Shown piece by piece: positions 48,216-57,457 of a DNA stretch of 64,000 bases. Source of the stretch: Myxococcota bacterium (GTDB taxonomy: Bacteria > Myxococcota_A > UBA9160 > UBA6930). Within the stretch, counting starts at the first letter, position 1; the number at the start of each line of letters is the position of its first letter. The translations under genes and the position numbers were made by a program. The stretch lies in assembly GCA_028277885.1 (NCBI GenBank), contig JANQFK010000023.1, positions 62,001-126,000 of the forward strand. The letters run 5' to 3'. The notes under the pieces were generated by a model. That model had not been told where the DNA came from. It saw only the letters and a program-made list of their open reading frames with translations, and made no database searches.

Positions 48216-48239
48216 GTGTTGGAGGAGCGTCGTCAACAC
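48216..48239. promoter_or_regulatory. Inverted repeat GTGTTG-N12-CAACAC, candidate operator
   Basis: Perfect 6-bp arms in the intergenic region ~58 bp upstream of the GTG start at 48297. Confidence 0.35.
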
Positions 48240-48296
48240 CGCATCGTTGGGTGTGGGGCGCTGGGGGACGACGCGTCGGTAGGAGGAGGGCTCGGC

Positions 48297-49418
48297 GTGG
48301 CCGACCAGGAAGACGGAAGCATCGCCTATCCCCAGGTGTTCACCCTCCACTGGGAGGGCCCGGCGGCCGCCGAGGTCCCGGTGGAGGCCGAGCTCGGAGA
48401 GGGCCGGGGGCCCGACGAGGACCCCGACGTGAGCGCGGTCCAGCGCACCGAGCGCGGCCAGGCGCTCTGGGAGCAGATCCGCCGCGAGGCCGAGCGCCGG
48501 GGCGACGCCGACCTCTGGCGCCGCAAGCTCTCCGCCTACGCCTGGGTGAAGCTCGAGGCCCGGGGCACCGCCGGCGACTACGCGCGCCGCTTCGAGGTCA
48601 ACCACGCCACGGTCCGGACCTGGATCAGCGACGTCGCGAAGCTCGCCTACCAGGTCGGCTACCGGCTCCACGAGGATCGGCTGCTGCTGGTGGGCGACGC
48701 GCCCGAGGGGCTGCGGCAGCTGCGCGAGCTGGTGAACCACGACGCCGCCTCCAGCGAGGCCTGGCACTGCCTGCGCGCGGTGGAGGCCGAGTTCCGCGGC
48801 GAGGACGCCTACTTCCATCTGAACGAGGGCCACGTGCTGCGGGCCCGGCGCTGCCTGCGCGAGTCCGACGAGACGCTCAAGGAGGGCCTCGCCATCGCGG
48901 AGGCGCGGCGCATCCGCTCGCTGCTCTGGAACGCCCGGGGCCAGACCTTCTGGGACTGCGAGCCCGAGTCGAGCCACCCGCTTCCCGACCACCTGGAGCG
49001 CGCCGAGAAGGCCTTCCGGCGCGCCGCGATCCTGGACCAGTCCACCTACTTCCCGTTCGTGAACCTCGCCCAGCTGGCGGTGGACGGCGGGGACCTGCGC
49101 CGTGCCGAGTACTGGATCGGCGAGCTCTCGGCGGCGCGAAAGGCGATGGAAGAGCCCATGCGAGACGATCTGGCGCGCTACCTGGACCAGGCGGAGTGGA
49201 GCGGCGCAGTGGCCGAGGAGCGCTTCTGGAAGGGCGGGCCGCTGCGCTGGCTCCGGGAGGCGGCCGGCAAGGGGGTGCTCGTGCTGGCGGCGCTGCTGCT
49301 GCTGGCCTGGACGCTCACCGCCCCCCCGGCGAGTGCCCACCCCGACCCGGGCGTCGAGCCCGTCGTGGCCCACGGCGGCCCGCGCGGCAACGCCAAGGGC
49401 GGCGCCGGCGGCAACTGA
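48297..49418 (+). CDS. Predicted membrane-anchored HTH/TPR-type regulator of unknown family
   Basis: GTG start; GTAGDYARRFEVNHATVRTWISDVAKLAYQVGYRL resembles an HTH; helical repeat-like middle; single C-terminal TM VLVLAALLLLAWTLT. Confidence 0.55.
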   Translation: MADQEDGSIAYPQVFTLHWEGPAAAEVPVEAELGEGRGPDEDPDVSAVQRTERGQALWEQIRREAERRGDADLWRRKLSAYAWVKLEARGTAGDYARRFEVNHATVRTWISDVAKLAYQVGYRLHEDRLLLVGDAPEGLRQLRELVNHDAASSEAWHCLRAVEAEFRGEDAYFHLNEGHVLRARRCLRESDETLKEGLAIAEARRIRSLLWNARGQTFWDCEPESSHPLPDHLERAEKAFRRAAILDQSTYFPFVNLAQLAVDGGDLRRAEYWIGELSAARKAMEEPMRDDLARYLDQAEWSGAVAEERFWKGGPLRWLREAAGKGVLVLAALLLLAWTLTAPPASAHPDPGVEPVVAHGGPRGNAKGGAGGN

Positions 49419-49615
49419 GCGCCGCCGCTCCGCGCGGCATCCCGCACCCACCCGACGCCCGGGCACTCGCCCGGGCGTCGCGCGTTTCGGGCCCCTGCCG
49501 CTCGGCTTCCCCCGGCCCGCGTCCGCCTGTTGGGCGGCGCGCTCCGACGCCACGTCGTGGGGTGAAGGCCGGTGCCGGCGGAGGAGGAGCCGGGCTGCGC
49601 CACGGAGGAGTGCCG

Positions 49616-50137
49616 ATGTCGGGTCGAGACGCCGCAAGCGTGCGGGCTTCGAACGGGGGGAGGTCCGCGCGAGCGTTGCGACGTCACGCGCGCAGGGTCG
49701 CGGTCGCTGCGGCGGCCGCGGCCCTCTGCGCGGGCACGGCCTGCGCGGGGTCGCGGGGGCCGGGGCCGATCGCGCCCGGCGCGCTCGCTGCCGAGGTGGA
49801 CGCGGCCCACGGCCTCTACGCCTCGGGCGAGTACGAGCTGGCGGCCCGGCGCTTCGGCTTCGCGTCCACCGAGGCGCGCCGGGCGGGGGACCGCGACCTC
49901 GAGCGCCGCACCAAGGCGGCCGAGTGCACCGCCTGGCTGAGGGCCCAGCGGATCGCGCGCTTCGCGACCTGCACCGACCGCCTCGAGGGCCTCCAGCGCC
50001 GGGCGCGCAGCTCGGACCCCGGCGTCAACACGCTGATCGCGCTCGGCGCCATCGCGGGGGGCCGCCCCGCACCGCCGCTGCGCATCCCGGGCGAGGTGCG
50101 TGAGGTGCTGCGCGCGGCCGCCGGAGAGGAGCGATGA
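49616..50137 (+). CDS. Putative lipoprotein with TPR-like segment
   Basis: AAALCAGTACAG lipobox-like region; AHGLYASGEYELAARRFGFASTEARRAGD; ATGA overlap with next gene. Confidence 0.6.
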   Translation: MSGRDAASVRASNGGRSARALRRHARRVAVAAAAAALCAGTACAGSRGPGPIAPGALAAEVDAAHGLYASGEYELAARRFGFASTEARRAGDRDLERRTKAAECTAWLRAQRIARFATCTDRLEGLQRRARSSDPGVNTLIALGAIAGGRPAPPLRIPGEVREVLRAAAGEER

Positions 50138-51048
50138 TGCGCTGGATCGTCTCGACGCTGGTCGGAGTGGCCCTGGCCGCGGCTGGAACGGCGGCCGCCG
50201 CAGCCCCGCGCGAGCGCGCCATTCAACAGATTCCCGAGCTCATGGGCCGCATCCTCGAGTCCCAGGAGGCGATTCGCGAGCAGGAGTCGAAGCTGGTGCC
50301 GCGCATCGAGCGCTGGAACGGCCAGCTCGAGCGGGCCCGGGGCAAGATCGAGTCGGCCAGCTCCGAGGACGAGGCCGCGACCGCGCTGGTCGACTACGTG
50401 GAGGCCTACGCGGAGCGGCTCGAGGAGCAGCAGGCCGGCCTCGACGCCATCCGGCCCTCGATCGTGCGCATGCGGGCCGACGCCCGGCAGCTGATCGACG
50501 CCGCCGAGTCGATGGCCGGCCCGCGGGAGACGCCCGAGGATCGGCGCAGCTTCTTCCAGGACCACTACCAGGGGGTCGCCTCGGCGACGGGTGAGCTCGC
50601 CAGCCGCCTCCAGCGCGAGGAGGAGGCGGCCACCGCGGGCGCGGTGCTCCACGCCAGCTGGGCGTCCCACGCGGCCCTCGACGTTCCCATCGAGGAGCTG
50701 GGCCCGGAGGGCGCGATGGCGTTCGCGCGCAAGGTCGAGGGGCTCTACGCCCGCTACCAGGCGCGCTCGGGCCAGCTGCGCTCGGAGCGCCAGGCCGTGC
50801 GCCGGCTCCTCGACGTGCTGATCGAGCGCCAGCTCGCGCGGCGCCTCGACACGCTCTTCGAGGGCGGCGACTCGATCGGGCTCGGAGCCCTGCTCGCGGG
50901 GGCCGGGAGCTCCCAGGACTGGCAGGACCTGGGCGGCCTGGTGCGCCGCACCCTCGGGCTTCCCGCCGGGGCGGGAGGCGGCCTCCAGCGCGAGACCGCC
51001 TCCCTCGACCGGCTCGATTTCTTCGCCAGCGGCGAGCACCGGGAGTAG
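50134..51048 (+). CDS. Secreted coiled-coil protein of unknown function
   Basis: Signal peptide MMRWIVSTLVGVALAAAGTAAAA, long charged helices. Confidence 0.7.
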   Translation: MMRWIVSTLVGVALAAAGTAAAAAPRERAIQQIPELMGRILESQEAIREQESKLVPRIERWNGQLERARGKIESASSEDEAATALVDYVEAYAERLEEQQAGLDAIRPSIVRMRADARQLIDAAESMAGPRETPEDRRSFFQDHYQGVASATGELASRLQREEEAATAGAVLHASWASHAALDVPIEELGPEGAMAFARKVEGLYARYQARSGQLRSERQAVRRLLDVLIERQLARRLDTLFEGGDSIGLGALLAGAGSSQDWQDLGGLVRRTLGLPAGAGGGLQRETASLDRLDFFASGEHRE

Positions 51049-51053
51049 CAACG

Positions 51054-51524
51054 ATGAGAAGGCACTCGAAGTCCTGGACGGCTCCGCGGCTCGGCCTCGC
51101 CCTCGCCCTGGCGGGCCTGACGCTGGGTCTGGTGGCCCCCGCGGCCGCGAAGGAGAGCGAGTCCTGCCGGCAGTGGCGCGGCGAGCACCGCGGCTACGAG
51201 GTCGAGGTGGTGCGCCTCTACCTCACGGGCGCCACCCAGCGCGCCCTCGACGAGGCGGTGTTCGAGCTGCTCCAGCGCGAGGCGTACCTCACCTCCTGCG
51301 AGCAGAGCGTGCGCGCCGCGCGGGTCGACCTGGTGGGCTGGCGCCTGGTGGGACGCGTGCCCGAGGAGTACCCGAGCGCCGTGGTGGAGTCGCTGCTGGC
51401 CCGGGCGGGCTTCGACGTCAGCCTGGACGCGCTGCTCTCCGGCGCCGTCGGAGTCGCGTACCGGCCGGCCCCGCCCGCGCGCACCCGGGGCCCGCGGGCC
51501 CGCGACCTCCGTGCTGCGCGCTAG
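51054..51524 (+). CDS. Small secreted protein of unknown function
   Basis: Signal peptide LGLALALAGLTLGLVAPAAA, two Cys residues (ESCRQW, TSCEQS). Confidence 0.65.
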   Translation: MRRHSKSWTAPRLGLALALAGLTLGLVAPAAAKESESCRQWRGEHRGYEVEVVRLYLTGATQRALDEAVFELLQREAYLTSCEQSVRAARVDLVGWRLVGRVPEEYPSAVVESLLARAGFDVSLDALLSGAVGVAYRPAPPARTRGPRARDLRAAR

Positions 51525-52002
51525 CGCGATGGGGTGCGCGCTCGGCGCGCTCCTCGCGGCGCCACTGGTGCTCGCCGGGAGCGGCGGGCCCGGCCTCGCC
51601 GCGCTGCCCGCCGCCGCCGTCGCGGGCTTGGTGGCCGCCGTGGACTCGGTGGGCTGGGTGCTGGTGCCGCAGGTCGTGCTCGCCGTGGCGGTGATCGGGC
51701 TCGCCCTCGAGCAGCTCGCCTCGCGGGTCGCCGGCTTCGGCGCGGCCCCCACCCCGGCGTGGCTGCCGCCCGCCGTGGAGTCGGCGCTGCTGCTGGGCCT
51801 GCTCGGAACGATCAGCGGCATGGTGACGGGCTTCGTCGAGCTCTCGCCCGAGGCCCTCGAGCCCGGCCCGCTGGTGCAGTCCCTGGGCCGGGCGCTGCGC
51901 AGCAGCTTCGTGGGCTTCGGGATCGCGCTGATCGGCGTGTGGACCCAGGCTCCCACCACGCACGCGACCGCCGCCACAGCCGCCGACGGGGCCCCCGCGT
52001 GA
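51511..52002 (+). CDS. ExbB/TolQ/MotA-like proton channel subunit (short)
   Basis: ESALLLGLLGTISGMVTGFVELSPEALEPGPLVQSLGRALRSSFVGFGIALIGV matches ExbB TM2-TM3 signature. Confidence 0.65.
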   Translation: MLRASAMGCALGALLAAPLVLAGSGGPGLAALPAAAVAGLVAAVDSVGWVLVPQVVLAVAVIGLALEQLASRVAGFGAAPTPAWLPPAVESALLLGLLGTISGMVTGFVELSPEALEPGPLVQSLGRALRSSFVGFGIALIGVWTQAPTTHATAATAADGAPA

Positions 52003-52402
52003 GCACTCCCTCCATGCTCGGCTCCGGCATCTACTTCATCGACGTGCTGGCGTGCCTGCTGTTCTGCCTGGCCCTGGCGCTGGTGGGCGCGCGCTTCGGA
52101 CGTGAGCAGTCCGTGGTGATCGACCTGCCCGGGGCCGAGGCGGCGGCCGCCAGCGGGGCGGACCTCTCCGGCACCTCGCTCCAGGTGAGCACCCGCGACG
52201 GACGCACCGAGATCCGCCTCGACGACGAGCGCGTCGCCCTCGAGGAGCTGGGAGCCCGGCTGCGCGAGGCGCCCCCGCCCTCCCTGGTGGTGCGCGCCGA
52301 GGATTCGGACCTCGCCCGCGTGATCGCCATCGCCCACGCGGCGGGGGTCCACGACATCGAGCTCGCCTACGAGGTGGCGCCGAGCCCGCAGGGCCGGCCG
52401 TG
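51999..52402 (+). CDS. ExbD/TolR-like protein
   Basis: GIYFIDVLACLLFCLALALVG TM with Asp, compact periplasmic domain ending DLARVIAIAHAAGVHDIELAYE; overlaps neighbours. Confidence 0.65.
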
Positions 52403-52981
52403 ATCCGGGCCACCCTCGTGCTGATGGCCGTGGTGCTGGCGGGCGTGGGCGCGGTGCTGTGGACCGCGCGGAACCTCGATCCGCTGCGCGTGGTCGAGCG
52501 CATCGCGCCGGCCCGGGTCCACACCGTGGACCTGAGCGGGTCCGGCGCGTTCCCGCGCGGGCGGCCCGAGGACGAGGCGCCGCCGGTCGAGATCGAGGAG
52601 CGGGCCGCGCCCCCGGCGGCCGCCGCCGCGAGCCCGGTGCCCACCCGGACCGCGCCCCCCGCGTCGCCCGTCCGGCGGCAGCCCGAGCCGGTGCCGGAGC
52701 GGGAGCCGGGTTCGCACGCGGGCTCCGAGCCGGAGCTCCAGACTCGCGACCTGTCGCCGCGGCGCGAGCTGCGCGAGGCGGCCGATCCGGCGTCTCTTGC
52801 CGAGGCCGCGCCGGGGGCCCCGCTGCAGGAGCCCGCCGGTGGGTCCTCGGCCGCGAGCGACGCGACCGCCGCCGTCGCCGAGGTGCCCCTCGCGCTGGAG
52901 CCGCGCCTGGCTCCCGACGAGTCGGCGGCGCTGATCCGCCGCATGCTGGCGCTCTACGAGCGGGCGGGAGAGCCGCGGTGA
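52400..52981 (+). CDS. Single-TM proline-rich TonB-like protein
   Basis: N-terminal TM LVLMAVVLAGVGAVLW then long Pro/Ala/Glu-rich periplasmic region. Confidence 0.5.
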   Translation: MIRATLVLMAVVLAGVGAVLWTARNLDPLRVVERIAPARVHTVDLSGSGAFPRGRPEDEAPPVEIEERAAPPAAAAASPVPTRTAPPASPVRRQPEPVPEREPGSHAGSEPELQTRDLSPRRELREAADPASLAEAAPGAPLQEPAGGSSAASDATAAVAEVPLALEPRLAPDESAALIRRMLALYERAGEPR

Positions 52982-53787
52982 GGCGCCGGGCCTGGCTCGT
53001 GTGGCTGTCGCGCGGCGTGGTGGCGCTCTGGATCGGCGCCTACCTGGCGTCGCAGGTGGGGCCCGCCGCGCCGGTCGAGGCGACGGAGGTGGCCGAGAGC
53101 GCCGCGCGCGTGCAGCCGCGGCCCCTCGAGCCGCCCCGCCGGCCGCCCGAGCCTCGCGAGGCGAAGACCGCGAAGCCCGCGGCCCCGCCCGAGCCGAGCG
53201 CCGAGCCCGAGCCGACCCCGGAGCCCGGCCCGAAGCCCGCCCGGCTGGGCGCCGCCGAGGTGGAGGAGGGCGACCGCATCCTCGCGGGTGGCGGCGACTT
53301 CCCGGTGCTGAGCTGCACCTACGAGGACTTCCCGAGCTTCGACCACTACGCCCGCGCGATGGCGGCGCTGGGCGCGCGCTTCGTGGTGGTGCGCCAGCGG
53401 CGCATCGTGGCCGCCATCGACCCCGCGAGCGGCCGCTTCGAGGAGGCGCGGGTGGACGCCGGCTTCTCTCCCCGCGCCCGGGACTACACGGGGGAGCCCG
53501 CCCTCGCCCCGCTGGCCCGCGCCGCCCGCGAGCGCTTCGGTGGAGGCGCCGTGGTGATGATGCTGGTGCCCCGGACCATCGACGCGGGGCTCTTCGGAGG
53601 GATCTCCCGCGCCCTCGCCGGGCGCGGCGAAGCCCACCAGGCCTATCGCGAGATCCGCGGCCGCTACCAGCGCGCCCCCGGCGGAGGGGTGCGCCTGCGC
53701 GTGGACCGCGGAACCCGCCTGGACGGCTCGGAGGTGGAGATGGACCTGCTCTTCGAGCTCGCCGGGCTCGCGGACCGCTCGGCGTGA
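52978..53787 (+). CDS. Single-TM proline-rich protein with C-terminal globular domain of unknown family
   Basis: GTG start overlapping previous stop; TM WLVWLSRGVVALWIGAYL; PEPSAEPEPTPEPGPKP linker; conserved-looking domain FPVLSCTYEDFPSFDHYARAMAALG. Confidence 0.6.
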   Translation: MRRRAWLVWLSRGVVALWIGAYLASQVGPAAPVEATEVAESAARVQPRPLEPPRRPPEPREAKTAKPAAPPEPSAEPEPTPEPGPKPARLGAAEVEEGDRILAGGGDFPVLSCTYEDFPSFDHYARAMAALGARFVVVRQRRIVAAIDPASGRFEEARVDAGFSPRARDYTGEPALAPLARAARERFGGGAVVMMLVPRTIDAGLFGGISRALAGRGEAHQAYREIRGRYQRAPGGGVRLRVDRGTRLDGSEVEMDLLFELAGLADRSA

Positions 53788-54389
53788 GGCGGGCCGGCCT
53801 CGCGGCGGGCCTCGTCGTCGCGCTGCTCGGGAGCGCGCCGCTCGTGGCCCGGGCCGACGAGGGCATCGCGCGTCGCCTCCACGCGCTGCGCGTGCTGGCT
53901 CCGCGCGACGGCGAGGCGTCGGCCGCGCTGCCCGAGGGACCCGCGGCGTCCCACGCCGACTGCGCGAGCGGCGCCTGGTGGGAGGCGAGCGCCTACGCGG
54001 TGCGGGCCCGCACCCGCCAGGCGATCCAGGACGCCGCGCTGCGCTTCGCCGTGGACGAGAGCCTGATCCGCAGCGTGATCCGCCACGAGAGCGCCTACGA
54101 GATCCGCGCCGTCTCCCACAAGGGCGCCATGGGTCTGATGCAGCTGATGCCCGCCACGGCCCGGGAGCTCGGCGTGGCCTGTGCGTTCGATCCGCGGGAG
54201 AACGTGCTCGGCGGAACCCGCTACCTGCGCCAGCTCTACGACCGGCTCGGCAGCTGGCCGCGCGCCGTGGCGGCCTACCACGCGGGTCCGAGCCGGGTCG
54301 AGCGCGGCCGCATCCCGGGCGAGACCCGCACCTACGTGCGACGGGTGATCACCACCTGGCGCCCGCACCAGGACTACGCGCTCGACTGA
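53784..54389 (+). CDS. SLT-family lytic transglycosylase
   Basis: VDESLIRSVIRHESAYEIRAVSHKGAMGLMQLMPATARELGV catalytic Glu and GLMQLMP; AYHAGPSRV; GTG start overlapping previous stop. Confidence 0.88.
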   Translation: MRRAGLAAGLVVALLGSAPLVARADEGIARRLHALRVLAPRDGEASAALPEGPAASHADCASGAWWEASAYAVRARTRQAIQDAALRFAVDESLIRSVIRHESAYEIRAVSHKGAMGLMQLMPATARELGVACAFDPRENVLGGTRYLRQLYDRLGSWPRAVAAYHAGPSRVERGRIPGETRTYVRRVITTWRPHQDYALD

Positions 54390-55459
54390 CCCGCCCGGTC
54401 CGCGGCGTCGGGCGCGAGGCCGAGGGGCAGGCACGCGACGGCGAACTCGCGCTCGAGCCGGCGGGCGAGGGCGTCGCGCTCCTCGGGCCCGCGGGCCACG
54501 AGCTGGGCGCAGCCGTCGCCCTGGGAGCCCACGCCCTTGCCCCCCCAGGCGAGATCGCGCGCCGCGCCGCTCTCGAGCACCTCGTGGAGCCGCGGCGCCG
54601 CGAGCTCGGGGCAGGCCGGCGCCACGAGGGCGTCGAAGAGCGCCTGGGCCTCGCTCATCAGCTCGCCGAGCCCGCGGGCGTCGCCCTCGTGCAGGAGCGC
54701 GCGGGCGCGCCCGAGGAGCGCGGCGTTGCGCGGACCCAGGGCCTCGCGCACGCCCTCGGCGAGCCGGCCCGGGGTGTCGGGGAAGCAGGCGTTCAGGTCC
54801 GACAGGATGCGCCGGGTGTCCTTCCCCCGGCGCAGGTCCACGATCAGCAGCGCGATCTCGCCGCCCGGGGCGACGGGCTCGATCTCGAGGCCGTCGCCGT
54901 CGAAGGTCAGCATCACGGGCCGTCGCCCGTAGGCGCAGATCTGGTCCATGCGGCCGCACGCCGAGCCCGCCAGGCGCTCCCCCGCGTAGGCGAGCTGCAT
55001 CTCGTCCCGGATCGAGAGCCCGAGCTCCCAGGCGCGCCCGAACGCGCGGGCCACCAGCACGCACACCGCCGCCGAGGACGACAGGCCGCTGCCCATGGGC
55101 AGGTCCGCCTCCAGGACGTGCAGCTCGAGCCCGCCGGCGGCGTCGAAGCGGCGCAGGACCTCGGCCGCCACGCCGGCCGCGTAGCCGAAGAAGGCGTCGC
55201 GGCGGGCCACCTCGGCGAGGGCGTCGGGCGAGGCGGGCACGCGCAGCGGCCCGCGCGGGGTGCCGTCCGGAAGCACGCTCTGCACCACGAAGGCGTCGGG
55301 ATGCCGGCGGAAGCGCGCGCGCAGGCCCTGGTCGGTGCCGCTCACCAGGCAGCGGCCGGGCGGGAGCTGCGGCGCGCGGACGCGGTGTCCGCCCGCCCAG
55401 TCCGAGTGCTCGCCGAACAGGCACAGCCGGCCCGGCACGAAGAGCTCGTTCGCGTCCAC
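54374..55459 (-). CDS. GHMP kinase (galactokinase/mevalonate-kinase-like)
   Basis: VPGRLCLFGEHSDWAGGHR, ADLPMGSGLSSSAAVCVLVARAFG, CGRMDQICAYG; GTG start. Confidence 0.85.
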   Translation of the reverse strand: MDANELFVPGRLCLFGEHSDWAGGHRVRAPQLPPGRCLVSGTDQGLRARFRRHPDAFVVQSVLPDGTPRGPLRVPASPDALAEVARRDAFFGYAAGVAAEVLRRFDAAGGLELHVLEADLPMGSGLSSSAAVCVLVARAFGRAWELGLSIRDEMQLAYAGERLAGSACGRMDQICAYGRRPVMLTFDGDGLEIEPVAPGGEIALLIVDLRRGKDTRRILSDLNACFPDTPGRLAEGVREALGPRNAALLGRARALLHEGDARGLGELMSEAQALFDALVAPACPELAAPRLHEVLESGAARDLAWGGKGVGSQGDGCAQLVARGPEERDALARRLEREFAVACLPLGLAPDAADRAGQSSA

Positions 55460-55590
55460 GGGCCGCGATCCTAGCGGCGCTCGCCCGGCGACGTTCCGGC
55501 TCCGCGGCCCGTACCGCGTTGCGGGCCCCAGGGCCGCGTGCCACCCTGGCCGTCTCGCGAGGCGATGCACGTGGCACTCCCGGAGCCCCG

Positions 55591-56481
55591 ATGATGCGGC
55601 GCATCGCCAGGCCGCTCCCCGCGTCGGCGGCCGTCGTCGGCGTCGTCACCGCGGCCGCACTCGGGCTCGGCGCGGTCGCGGGTTGCGGCGAGCCCGGTCG
55701 CGAGCTCGAGCTGGTGGGGCTGGTCGAGCGCTCGGTGATCGAGCTGGTGGCGCCGCGCTCCGAGACCCTGGTGGCCGTGGAGGCGGAGCGCGGCCAGTCG
55801 GTGGCGGCGGGCCACGTCGTGGTGAGCCTCGACCCCACCCTCGCCGAGGCGGACCTGGCGGGCGCCGAGGCCGCGCTGGCCGGCGCCCGCACCGCCGATC
55901 GCGTGGCCGGCCAGGAGCTCGCGCGCCTGCGGGCGCTGCGCCGCGACAACGTGGCCTCCGCCCAGGCGCTGGAGCGCGCCGAGCTCGGGCGGGACGAGGC
56001 GGCGGCGCGGCTGCGCGAGGCCCAGGCCGGGCTCGCGGCGGCGCGCAAGCACCTGGCGGACCTGCGCCTCGCGGCCCCCGGGCCCGCCGTGGTGGACCAG
56101 CTGCCCTTCGAGGTGGGCGAGCGGGTGCCCGCCGGGGCCGTGGTGGCGGTGCTGCTCGCCAAGTCGGCGCCCTGGGTGCGGGTGTGGGTGCCCGAGGACG
56201 CCTACGCGCGGGTCTCGCCGGGAACCCCCGCGCGCGTCGCGGTGGACGGCGTGCCGGGCGTGCTCGAGGGACGCGTCCTCGACCTCGCCCGGGAGCCCGA
56301 GTTCACGCCCCACTACGCCCTCACCGAGCGCGACCGCGTGCACCTGGTCTACGAGGCGCGGGTCGAGATCCGTGGCGCGCCGCCGAACCTGCGCCCGGGC
56401 ATCCCCGCCGAGGTGGTGCTGCTCCCGCGTCCCGCCATGCAGGCCGATCCCACCCCCGGCCGCGCGCTGAGGGACGGCTGA
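55591..56481 (+). CDS. HlyD-family periplasmic adaptor (possible lipoprotein)
   Basis: GAVAGCGEPG; VAVEAERGQSVAAGHVVVSLDPTLAEADLAGAEAAL; RVWVPEDAYARVSPGTPARV. Confidence 0.85.
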   Translation: MMRRIARPLPASAAVVGVVTAAALGLGAVAGCGEPGRELELVGLVERSVIELVAPRSETLVAVEAERGQSVAAGHVVVSLDPTLAEADLAGAEAALAGARTADRVAGQELARLRALRRDNVASAQALERAELGRDEAAARLREAQAGLAAARKHLADLRLAAPGPAVVDQLPFEVGERVPAGAVVAVLLAKSAPWVRVWVPEDAYARVSPGTPARVAVDGVPGVLEGRVLDLAREPEFTPHYALTERDRVHLVYEARVEIRGAPPNLRPGIPAEVVLLPRPAMQADPTPGRALRDG

Positions 56482-56485
56482 GCCC

Positions 56486-57457
56486 ATGGCCGCCGCCGTC
56501 GACGAGCCCGGCGTCATCGAGGCCCGCGGGCTCACGCGCAGCTTCGGGAGCCTGGTCGCGGTGGACGGCGTCGACCTCTCGGTCGGGCGCGGCGAGGTGT
56601 TCGGCTGCCTCGGTCCCAACGGCTCGGGGAAGTCCACGCTGATGCGCATGCTCCTGGGCCTGCTGGCGCCGAGCGCCGGCGAGGCCCGGGTGCTCGGCCG
56701 GCGCATCCCCGAGGAGGCCGAGGAGCTGCGCCCGGCGGTGGGCTACATGACCCAGCGCTTCTCGCTCTACGAGGACCTGCGCGTGGGCGAGAACCTCGAC
56801 TTCGCCGCCCAGGCCTTCGGCCTGCCGCGCGCGCGCCGTCGCGCTCGCGTCGCCGCCGCCATCGACGAGTACGGCCTCGAGCCGCACCGCCGCAAGCTGG
56901 CGGGGAACCTCTCGGGCGGCTGGAAGCAGCGCCTCGCCCTGGCGGTCGCCACCATCCACGAGCCCGAGCTGCTGGTGCTCGACGAGCCGACGGCGGGCGT
57001 GGACCCGGAGAGCCGCCGCGAGTTCTGGGAGCGCCTGTTCGAGGTGGCGAGCCGCGGCACCACGATCTTCGTCAGCACCCACTACATGGACGAGGCGGTG
57101 CGCTGCCACCGCCTCTGCATCCTGCGCGACGGACGCCGCGCCGCCCTGGGCACGCCCGGCGGGCTCACCCGCGGCCTGGCCGGGCGCGTCCTCGACCTCG
57201 CCGTGGATCCGCCGGAGCGCGCCATCGCGGCCCTGCGCGGCTCGCCCCGGGTGGCCAGCACCACCCAGCTCGGCGACACCGTGCACGTGCTGCTCGCCGC
57301 GGACGCGCCGCCCGCCGCCCGGGCCGGCGACGAGCTGGTCGCCTTCCTCGAGGCCGCGGGCCTGCCCGGCGCGCGGGCGACGCCGAGCGCCGCGAACCTC
57401 GAGGACGTCTTCGTCGCGCTGCTGCTCGGCGAGGAGCTGGTCGAGGACGCCGGGTGA
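56486..57457 (+). CDS. ABC transporter ATP-binding protein
   Basis: CLGPNGSGKSTLMRMLLG Walker A, NLSGGWKQRLALAVA signature, LLVLDEPTAGVD Walker B. Confidence 0.95.
   Translation: MAAAVDEPGVIEARGLTRSFGSLVAVDGVDLSVGRGEVFGCLGPNGSGKSTLMRMLLGLLAPSAGEARVLGRRIPEEAEELRPAVGYMTQRFSLYEDLRVGENLDFAAQAFGLPRARRRARVAAAIDEYGLEPHRRKLAGNLSGGWKQRLALAVATIHEPELLVLDEPTAGVDPESRREFWERLFEVASRGTTIFVSTHYMDEAVRCHRLCILRDGRRAALGTPGGLTRGLAGRVLDLAVDPPERAIAALRGSPRVASTTQLGDTVHVLLAADAPPAARAGDELVAFLEAAGLPGARATPSAANLEDVFVALLLGEELVEDAG

Follow-up and report, generated by a model that had tools for sequence, protein, structure and literature searches.

Motors of the ExbBD/TolQR type, driven by the proton motive force (PMF), power transport, division, motility and phage defence. 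The locus considered here lies in a 64,000-nucleotide stretch (the window) of a Myxococcota genome (assembly GCA_028277885.1, contig JANQFK010000023.1, positions 62,001 to 126,000, forward strand), where nine genes, A to I, occupy positions 48297–54389, all on the plus strand. They include genes for ExbB-like (E) and ExbD-like (F) proteins, two linker proteins with one transmembrane (TM) helix each (G and H) and an SLT lytic transglycosylase (I). On the evidence of orthology, the A–I locus holds together as a genuine evolutionary unit, confined to one class of uncultured Myxococcota. We lean, if slightly, towards reading B–I as one operon for a dedicated accessory trans-envelope machine of the ExbBD type, with A as its membrane-anchored regulator. 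Diverse trans-envelope systems energised by 5:2 PMF motors have been argued to await discovery (PMC12204202); no description of this cluster turned up in the literature searched, whose coverage was incomplete.

Like the ExbBD-TonB systems, the cluster has ExbB/ExbD-family subunits and adjoining single-TM Pro-rich proteins, but its E protein is much shorter, the TonB_C domain, the SHLS motif and a receptor in the operon are missing, and A, B, C, D and the SLT gene are added. Its operon, like that of Tol-Pal (TolQRA-TolB-Pal-CpoB), brings together a motor, linker proteins, a lipoprotein and helical periplasmic proteins; however, TolB and Pal are missing from it (Pfam), the distribution of the cluster is patchy, and a tol locus lies elsewhere in the genome. 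The TonB2-type systems (TtpB/DUF3450, TtpC, TtpD) also have an accessory helical periplasmic protein before ExbB/ExbD, whereas here C is not detectably a DUF3450 protein, there is no TtpC, the transducers are different, and true DUF3450 loci are separate. The Agl-Glt core of Myxococcus consists of one TolQ-like and two TolR-like subunits with an FHA-TonB_C transducer (PMC3169522). The cluster has a single F, no FHA or TonB_C domain in the operon according to Pfam and NCBIfam, and no large TPR or barrel proteins. Finally, the vWA force transducers (PMC12204202) combine a TM helix, a disordered linker and a globular domain beside TolQ/TolR-like genes, as H does, but the H domain has no Pfam match, no significant fold match in the PDB and no SHLS.

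A combined H profile matched 16 of the 379 genomes of the phylum, all from the class of the window, so that the cluster is present in 16 of 91 genomes of this class. Given this patchy distribution, the system is accessory. Twelve genomes from the order of the window, its own included, carry H, and in a sister order it was matched more weakly. C, searched independently of H, was found in exactly the same 12 genomes. The relatives are metagenome-assembled genomes (MAGs) with contig breaks. The arrangement in the 12 genomes is B-CDEF-GHI, the cluster being split over two contigs in four of them. In the sister order it is B-GHI-CDEF, complete in three genomes (L036, L037, L117) and cut in a fourth (L035), where the contig ends inside H; A is divergent in L117 and L035. 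In larger regions from the relatives, gene content and gene order agree, and the flanks are unrelated. Between the two arrangements, hhalign (whose E-values here and below refer to single comparisons) finds H and A clearly homologous and B, D, E and F weakly so. As orthologues recur together in 16 genomes, the unit is more than chance; the preliminary description of this DNA had named a lack of co-occurrence as the result that would speak against it, and the genes do co-occur, in two orders and two arrangements. Since the CDEF and GHI blocks have stayed intact through the rearrangement, the order suggests a motor-adaptor block (CDEF) and a rod-hydrolase block (GHI). The named records matching C all come from Myxococcota, Myxococcales or delta-proteobacterial MAGs. 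A back-translated H search of the GTDB contigs found nothing, and H was not found in plasmids.

The contrast between GC content at third (GC3, 0.92–0.96) and second (GC2, 0.49–0.68) codon positions across A–I is that expected in a window with 74.6% GC, and hence these are real genes, although their start codons are our choice. B–I are eight tightly coupled plus-strand genes (49616–54389), with 4-nt overlaps at five of their seven junctions, a 14-nt overlap between D and E, and a 5-nt gap between C and D. The eight consecutive genes with mostly overlapping starts and stops noted earlier are thus confirmed. The gap between A and B is 197 nt. The features are listed in Table 1.

Table 1. Genes and non-coding features of the locus (window positions)
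Feature	Positions	Strand	Description
Promoter-like motif	48217..48245	+	TGTTG-N14-ACACCGCATC, 80 nt before A
Gene A	48297..49418	+	helix-turn-helix (HTH) domain, TPR-like helices, one TM (~318–347), conserved C-terminal tail GGAGGN; putative regulator
Inverted repeat	49453..49480		perfect 12-bp repeat, 4-nt loop, terminator-like, between A and B
Promoter-like motif	49528..49564	+	TGTTG-N14-ACGCCACGTC, 88 nt before B
Gene B	49616..50137	+	secreted helical protein, probable lipoprotein; orthologue identity 42–49%
Gene C	50134..51048	+	secreted long-helix (coiled-coil) protein; 59–66% identical in 7 relatives
Gene D	51054..51524	+	small secreted protein, two invariant Cys (C38, C82)
Gene E	51511..52002	+	compact ExbB/TolQ-like channel subunit, 163 aa; MotA_ExbB match, LGxLGT kept
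Gene F	51999..52403	+	ExbD/TolR-like subunit; ExbD match, conserved TM Asp (D15)
Gene G	52400..52981	+	one N-terminal TM, variable Pro/Glu-rich linker, conserved C-terminal helix SAALIRRMLALY
Gene H	52978..53787	+	one N-terminal TM, Pro-rich linker, conserved alpha/beta C-terminal domain of ~175 aa
Gene I	53784..54389	+	secreted SLT lytic transglycosylase; SLT match 1.3e-26

The E protein is just over the curated cut-off of MotA_ExbB (PF01618; 5.7e-5, 23.3 bits, cut-off 22.9). All eight E orthologues match this family at E≤0.01, and the sister-order E matches it more strongly (4e-8, 33.5 bits). When E is aligned with canonical ExbB/TolQ of the class, the channel motif with its Gly-Thr pair is retained, but the cytoplasmic region between the first TM and the channel helices comprises about 20 residues instead of about 100. 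The F protein is just under the cut-off of ExbD (PF02472; 4.3e-5, 24.0 bits, cut-off 25.4); eight of nine F orthologues match at E≤0.01, and the sister-order F is over the cut-off (5.7e-8, 33.3 bits). The Asp at the start of the TM helix lies within FIDVL or FIDIL in all complete members from the order of the window and within PDIML in L036. Sequence searches with E and F against the PDB gave no useful match.

The G and H proteins resemble TonB, as far as can be judged, in layout only. In 10 relatives H is 45–54% identical, and it aligns with its sister-order homologues with hhalign E 1.4e-15. The C-terminal domain of H is modelled by AlphaFold2 (AF2), as a monomer, with a predicted local distance difference test score (pLDDT) mostly of 86–97. 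However, no meaningful match in the PDB was obtained either with this model (best E 0.13, probability 0.11) or with the sequence, and neither G nor H matches a TonB_C or TolA C-terminal domain in Pfam or NCBIfam. In the TM helix of H the Ser/Cys position is followed by His in three sequences and by Arg in most others. Hence, of the earlier label "TonB-like", the layout stands (a single TM and a Pro-rich linker), while membership in the TonB or TolA family does not.

The I protein belongs to the SLT family (PF01464, 92.9 bits), and the catalytic ES and GLMQLMP motifs are intact in all ten orthologues checked. The SLT gene follows H in ten genomes from the order of the window and in L036, L037 and L117. 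The names ExbB-like, ExbD-like and SLT are backed by the Pfam matches in the window, and the first two also by those of the orthologues.

The genome contains the better-known systems elsewhere: a tolQ-tolR-tolA-like-tolB-TPR locus, with TolB_N on contig C37 beside TolQ/TolR, a DUF3450-TtpC-ExbB locus, and an ExbB-ExbD pair beside a TonB_C-like protein (the names tolA-like and TonB_C-like are readings of the translations). Because these loci are separate, the cluster is not the housekeeping Tol or Ton system, as had been proposed, and profile searches gave no canonical Tol-Pal or Ton assignment, the operon lacking TolB and Pal, and G and H lacking TonB_C and SHLS.

One alternative, which we regard as unlikely, is a divergent relative of the Vibrio TonB2-type system (TtpB/DUF3450, TtpC, ExbB2, ExbD2, TonB2, TtpD) energising outer-membrane transport. 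The order of a periplasmic helical protein, ExbB, ExbD and a linker protein is similar, TtpB2 and TtpD2 are essential accessory proteins of that system (PMC6957404), and six plug domains of TonB-dependent transporters are encoded elsewhere in the genome. The C protein even has a DUF3450 match, but a weak one (0.002, 17.9 bits, cut-off 32.6), seen in only three of eight C members and alongside other coiled-coil families; direct comparison of C with the DUF3450 profile by hhalign (probability 1.6%, p 0.03) does not support the link. Moreover, the operon has no TtpC, TonB_C or receptor, and true DUF3450 proteins are found not only at a separate locus of the same genome but over the cut-off in 65 of 91 genomes of the class. 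The DUF3450-TtpC-ExbB2 locus of this genome (L126:1-2906), cut by the contig end, has a diverged type of DUF3450 (7.9e-24).

Genes A–D, like G and H, have no specific family match in the window in Pfam or NCBIfam. Orthologues of A, 60–62% identical, stand beside B in L028, L029 and L034, and the divergent A of L035 is homologous as well (hhalign E 1.2e-9). The assigned HTH-TPR-TM make-up is consistent, since the distant A of L119 matches TPR_2 (3.8e-6) and, weakly, Sigma70_r4_2 (0.0022). The GGxGGN tail after the TM is invariant in A of four relatives, the diverged A of L119 and L035 carrying GDSMG motifs there instead. In B, the Cys at the end of the signal sequence is conserved in the relatives, but the lipobox of the window protein itself is poor, so that the earlier assignment as a lipoprotein holds as a probable one. 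The model of C is all-helical (pLDDT 69.9), and the fold search returned generic helical bundles only, with no specific match. The Cys pair of D is present in the sister order too.

The HTH-like membrane-anchored regulator noted before the operon is indeed there as gene A, but it is probably a separate transcription unit, given the 197-nt gap with a hairpin, the similar hairpins followed by T-rich stretches in the A–B gaps of L029 and L121, and the divergent orientation of A in more distant genomes. The motif TGTTG-N14-RCGCCRTGTC occurs upstream of B in nine genomes with a constant 14-nt spacing, although not in L118, L119 and L120; similar boxes precede A in L028 and L034, and a weaker one in L029. 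In the 5.2-Mb genome it occurs within one mismatch in six places, against five for the reversed control, and two of the six are at this locus: the site before B (the genome has one other exact match) and the site before A. A class-wide search gave background level except for the B-upstream sites, which were the consistent matches, and therefore we claim no wide regulon; matches at G040 C174 and G019 C257 looked chance-like on inspection. A sigma-70 promoter scan found nothing. The motif may be a promoter or a binding site of A.

Several side observations concern these elements. G058 and G022, in which H is not followed by an SLT gene, also have no clear motif before B (L120, L118). The A–B gap of L028 (7661–7928) holds four to five copies of a ~32-bp repeat with the TGTTGGGG box. 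On contig C39 of G000 (L127:1501-2076), an exact motif copy precedes what may be a G-like gene, with a TM, a Pro-rich linker and AALLRRLMAIRDRM at the C-terminus, and a TlpA-like gene is oriented divergently to it. With a GC3 of 0.83, low by the standard of this genome, the G-like gene is of uncertain coding status. A secreted-looking protein with many NPCA repeats (L162:5325-6566) adjoins the same motif site.

Another explanation is a sensing and wall-remodelling system, in which E, F, G and H would report the state of the envelope or wall to A, which controls transcription, while the SLT enzyme adjusts the wall. The HTH-TPR-TM architecture of A with its conserved tail, the motif before both A and B, and the usual presence of SLT in the operon agree with it. 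However, A is set apart by the hairpin and divergent in some genomes, binding of A to the motif is conjectural, no sensing domain was recognised, and the SLT gene is missing in two genomes; hence there is only a small chance that this explanation is correct.

Under the preferred reading of a dedicated machine, E and F would form an inner-membrane motor of the ExbBD/TolQR type using the PMF, with G and H anchored beside it by their single TM helices. The linkers would span the periplasm, the conserved C-terminal parts would act on a wall or outer-membrane partner, and the SLT enzyme would open peptidoglycan to let the rods pass; genomes that lack its gene at the locus would need another SLT for this. 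On the motor side, C and D may act as adaptors in the periplasm, with B as an anchoring lipoprotein on the outer-membrane side, while A might sense the periplasmic or assembly state via its TM and tail and control both promoters. The output of the machine could be transport, adhesion or envelope remodelling. Family knowledge and gene order are the basis on which we infer proton conduction, force transfer, the composition of the complex and the parts played by A, B, C and D. With less confidence than doubt, we further suggest a distinct class of PMF-driven force transduction, characterised by a channel without the cytoplasmic domain, an H fold absent from the PDB, rods passing through the wall with a dedicated transglycosylase, and a membrane-anchored regulator.

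A number of observations weigh against the dedicated machine. For C, hhalign detects no homology between the two arrangements, and the sister-order C may be a positional analogue. SHLS, the motor-binding motif of TonB/TolA (PMC12204202), is absent from the TM helix in 13 H and nine G sequences, one H and one G sequence being truncated or shifted at the N-terminus. The operon encodes no outer-membrane barrel or receptor, and the AF2 models, being monomers, are silent on the complex. In two of the 12 genomes, G058 and G022, no SLT gene was found after H, although the contigs continue; G058 (L031) has a glutathione-S-transferase-like gene on the opposite strand there, and in G022 (L017) an AMP-ligase-like gene follows, both names being readings of the translations. 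The hydrolase thus belongs to the locus as a rule, with exceptions, and the phrase "with its own wall hydrolase" of the preliminary description needs this restriction. Finally, where the last channel helix of canonical ExbB/TolQ has AEALIAT, E reads xALRSS; with the cytoplasmic region also missing, proton flow through E is not assured. It could be that E and F no longer work as a motor and the cluster is a static trans-envelope scaffold, as the shortening of E and the altered helix residues would allow, but F has kept its TM Asp and E its Gly-Thr, both across families and in the diverged sister order, which makes this very improbable. A reduced Agl-Glt-like machine for adhesion or gliding, with the same phylum and the core layout of motor, Pro-rich transducer and envelope proteins in its favour (PMC3169522), has equally slim prospects, as there is one ExbD-like subunit rather than AglQ and AglS, and the operon encodes no FHA, TonB_C or barrel domain. 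As for a defence system (Zorya or others), PADLOC assembled none and gave weak partial matches only (LmuB 7.2e-5 for the coiled-coil C, PD-T4-6 0.005 for H, ZorA 0.039 for E).

What the locus offers is a well-delimited set of conserved genes that includes a compact channel subunit, a domain that may act as transducer and matches no known fold and, in most cases, a hydrolase of the wall. From the two arrangements it can be seen which genes go together and which blocks are candidates for subcomplexes; the system is thus ready for co-complex modelling and heterologous tests.

The flanking genes at 54374–57457, which are not kept beside the operon in the relatives, are a minus-strand GHMP-kinase (galactokinase-like) gene followed by plus-strand genes that we read as HlyD-like and ABC transporter ATPase.

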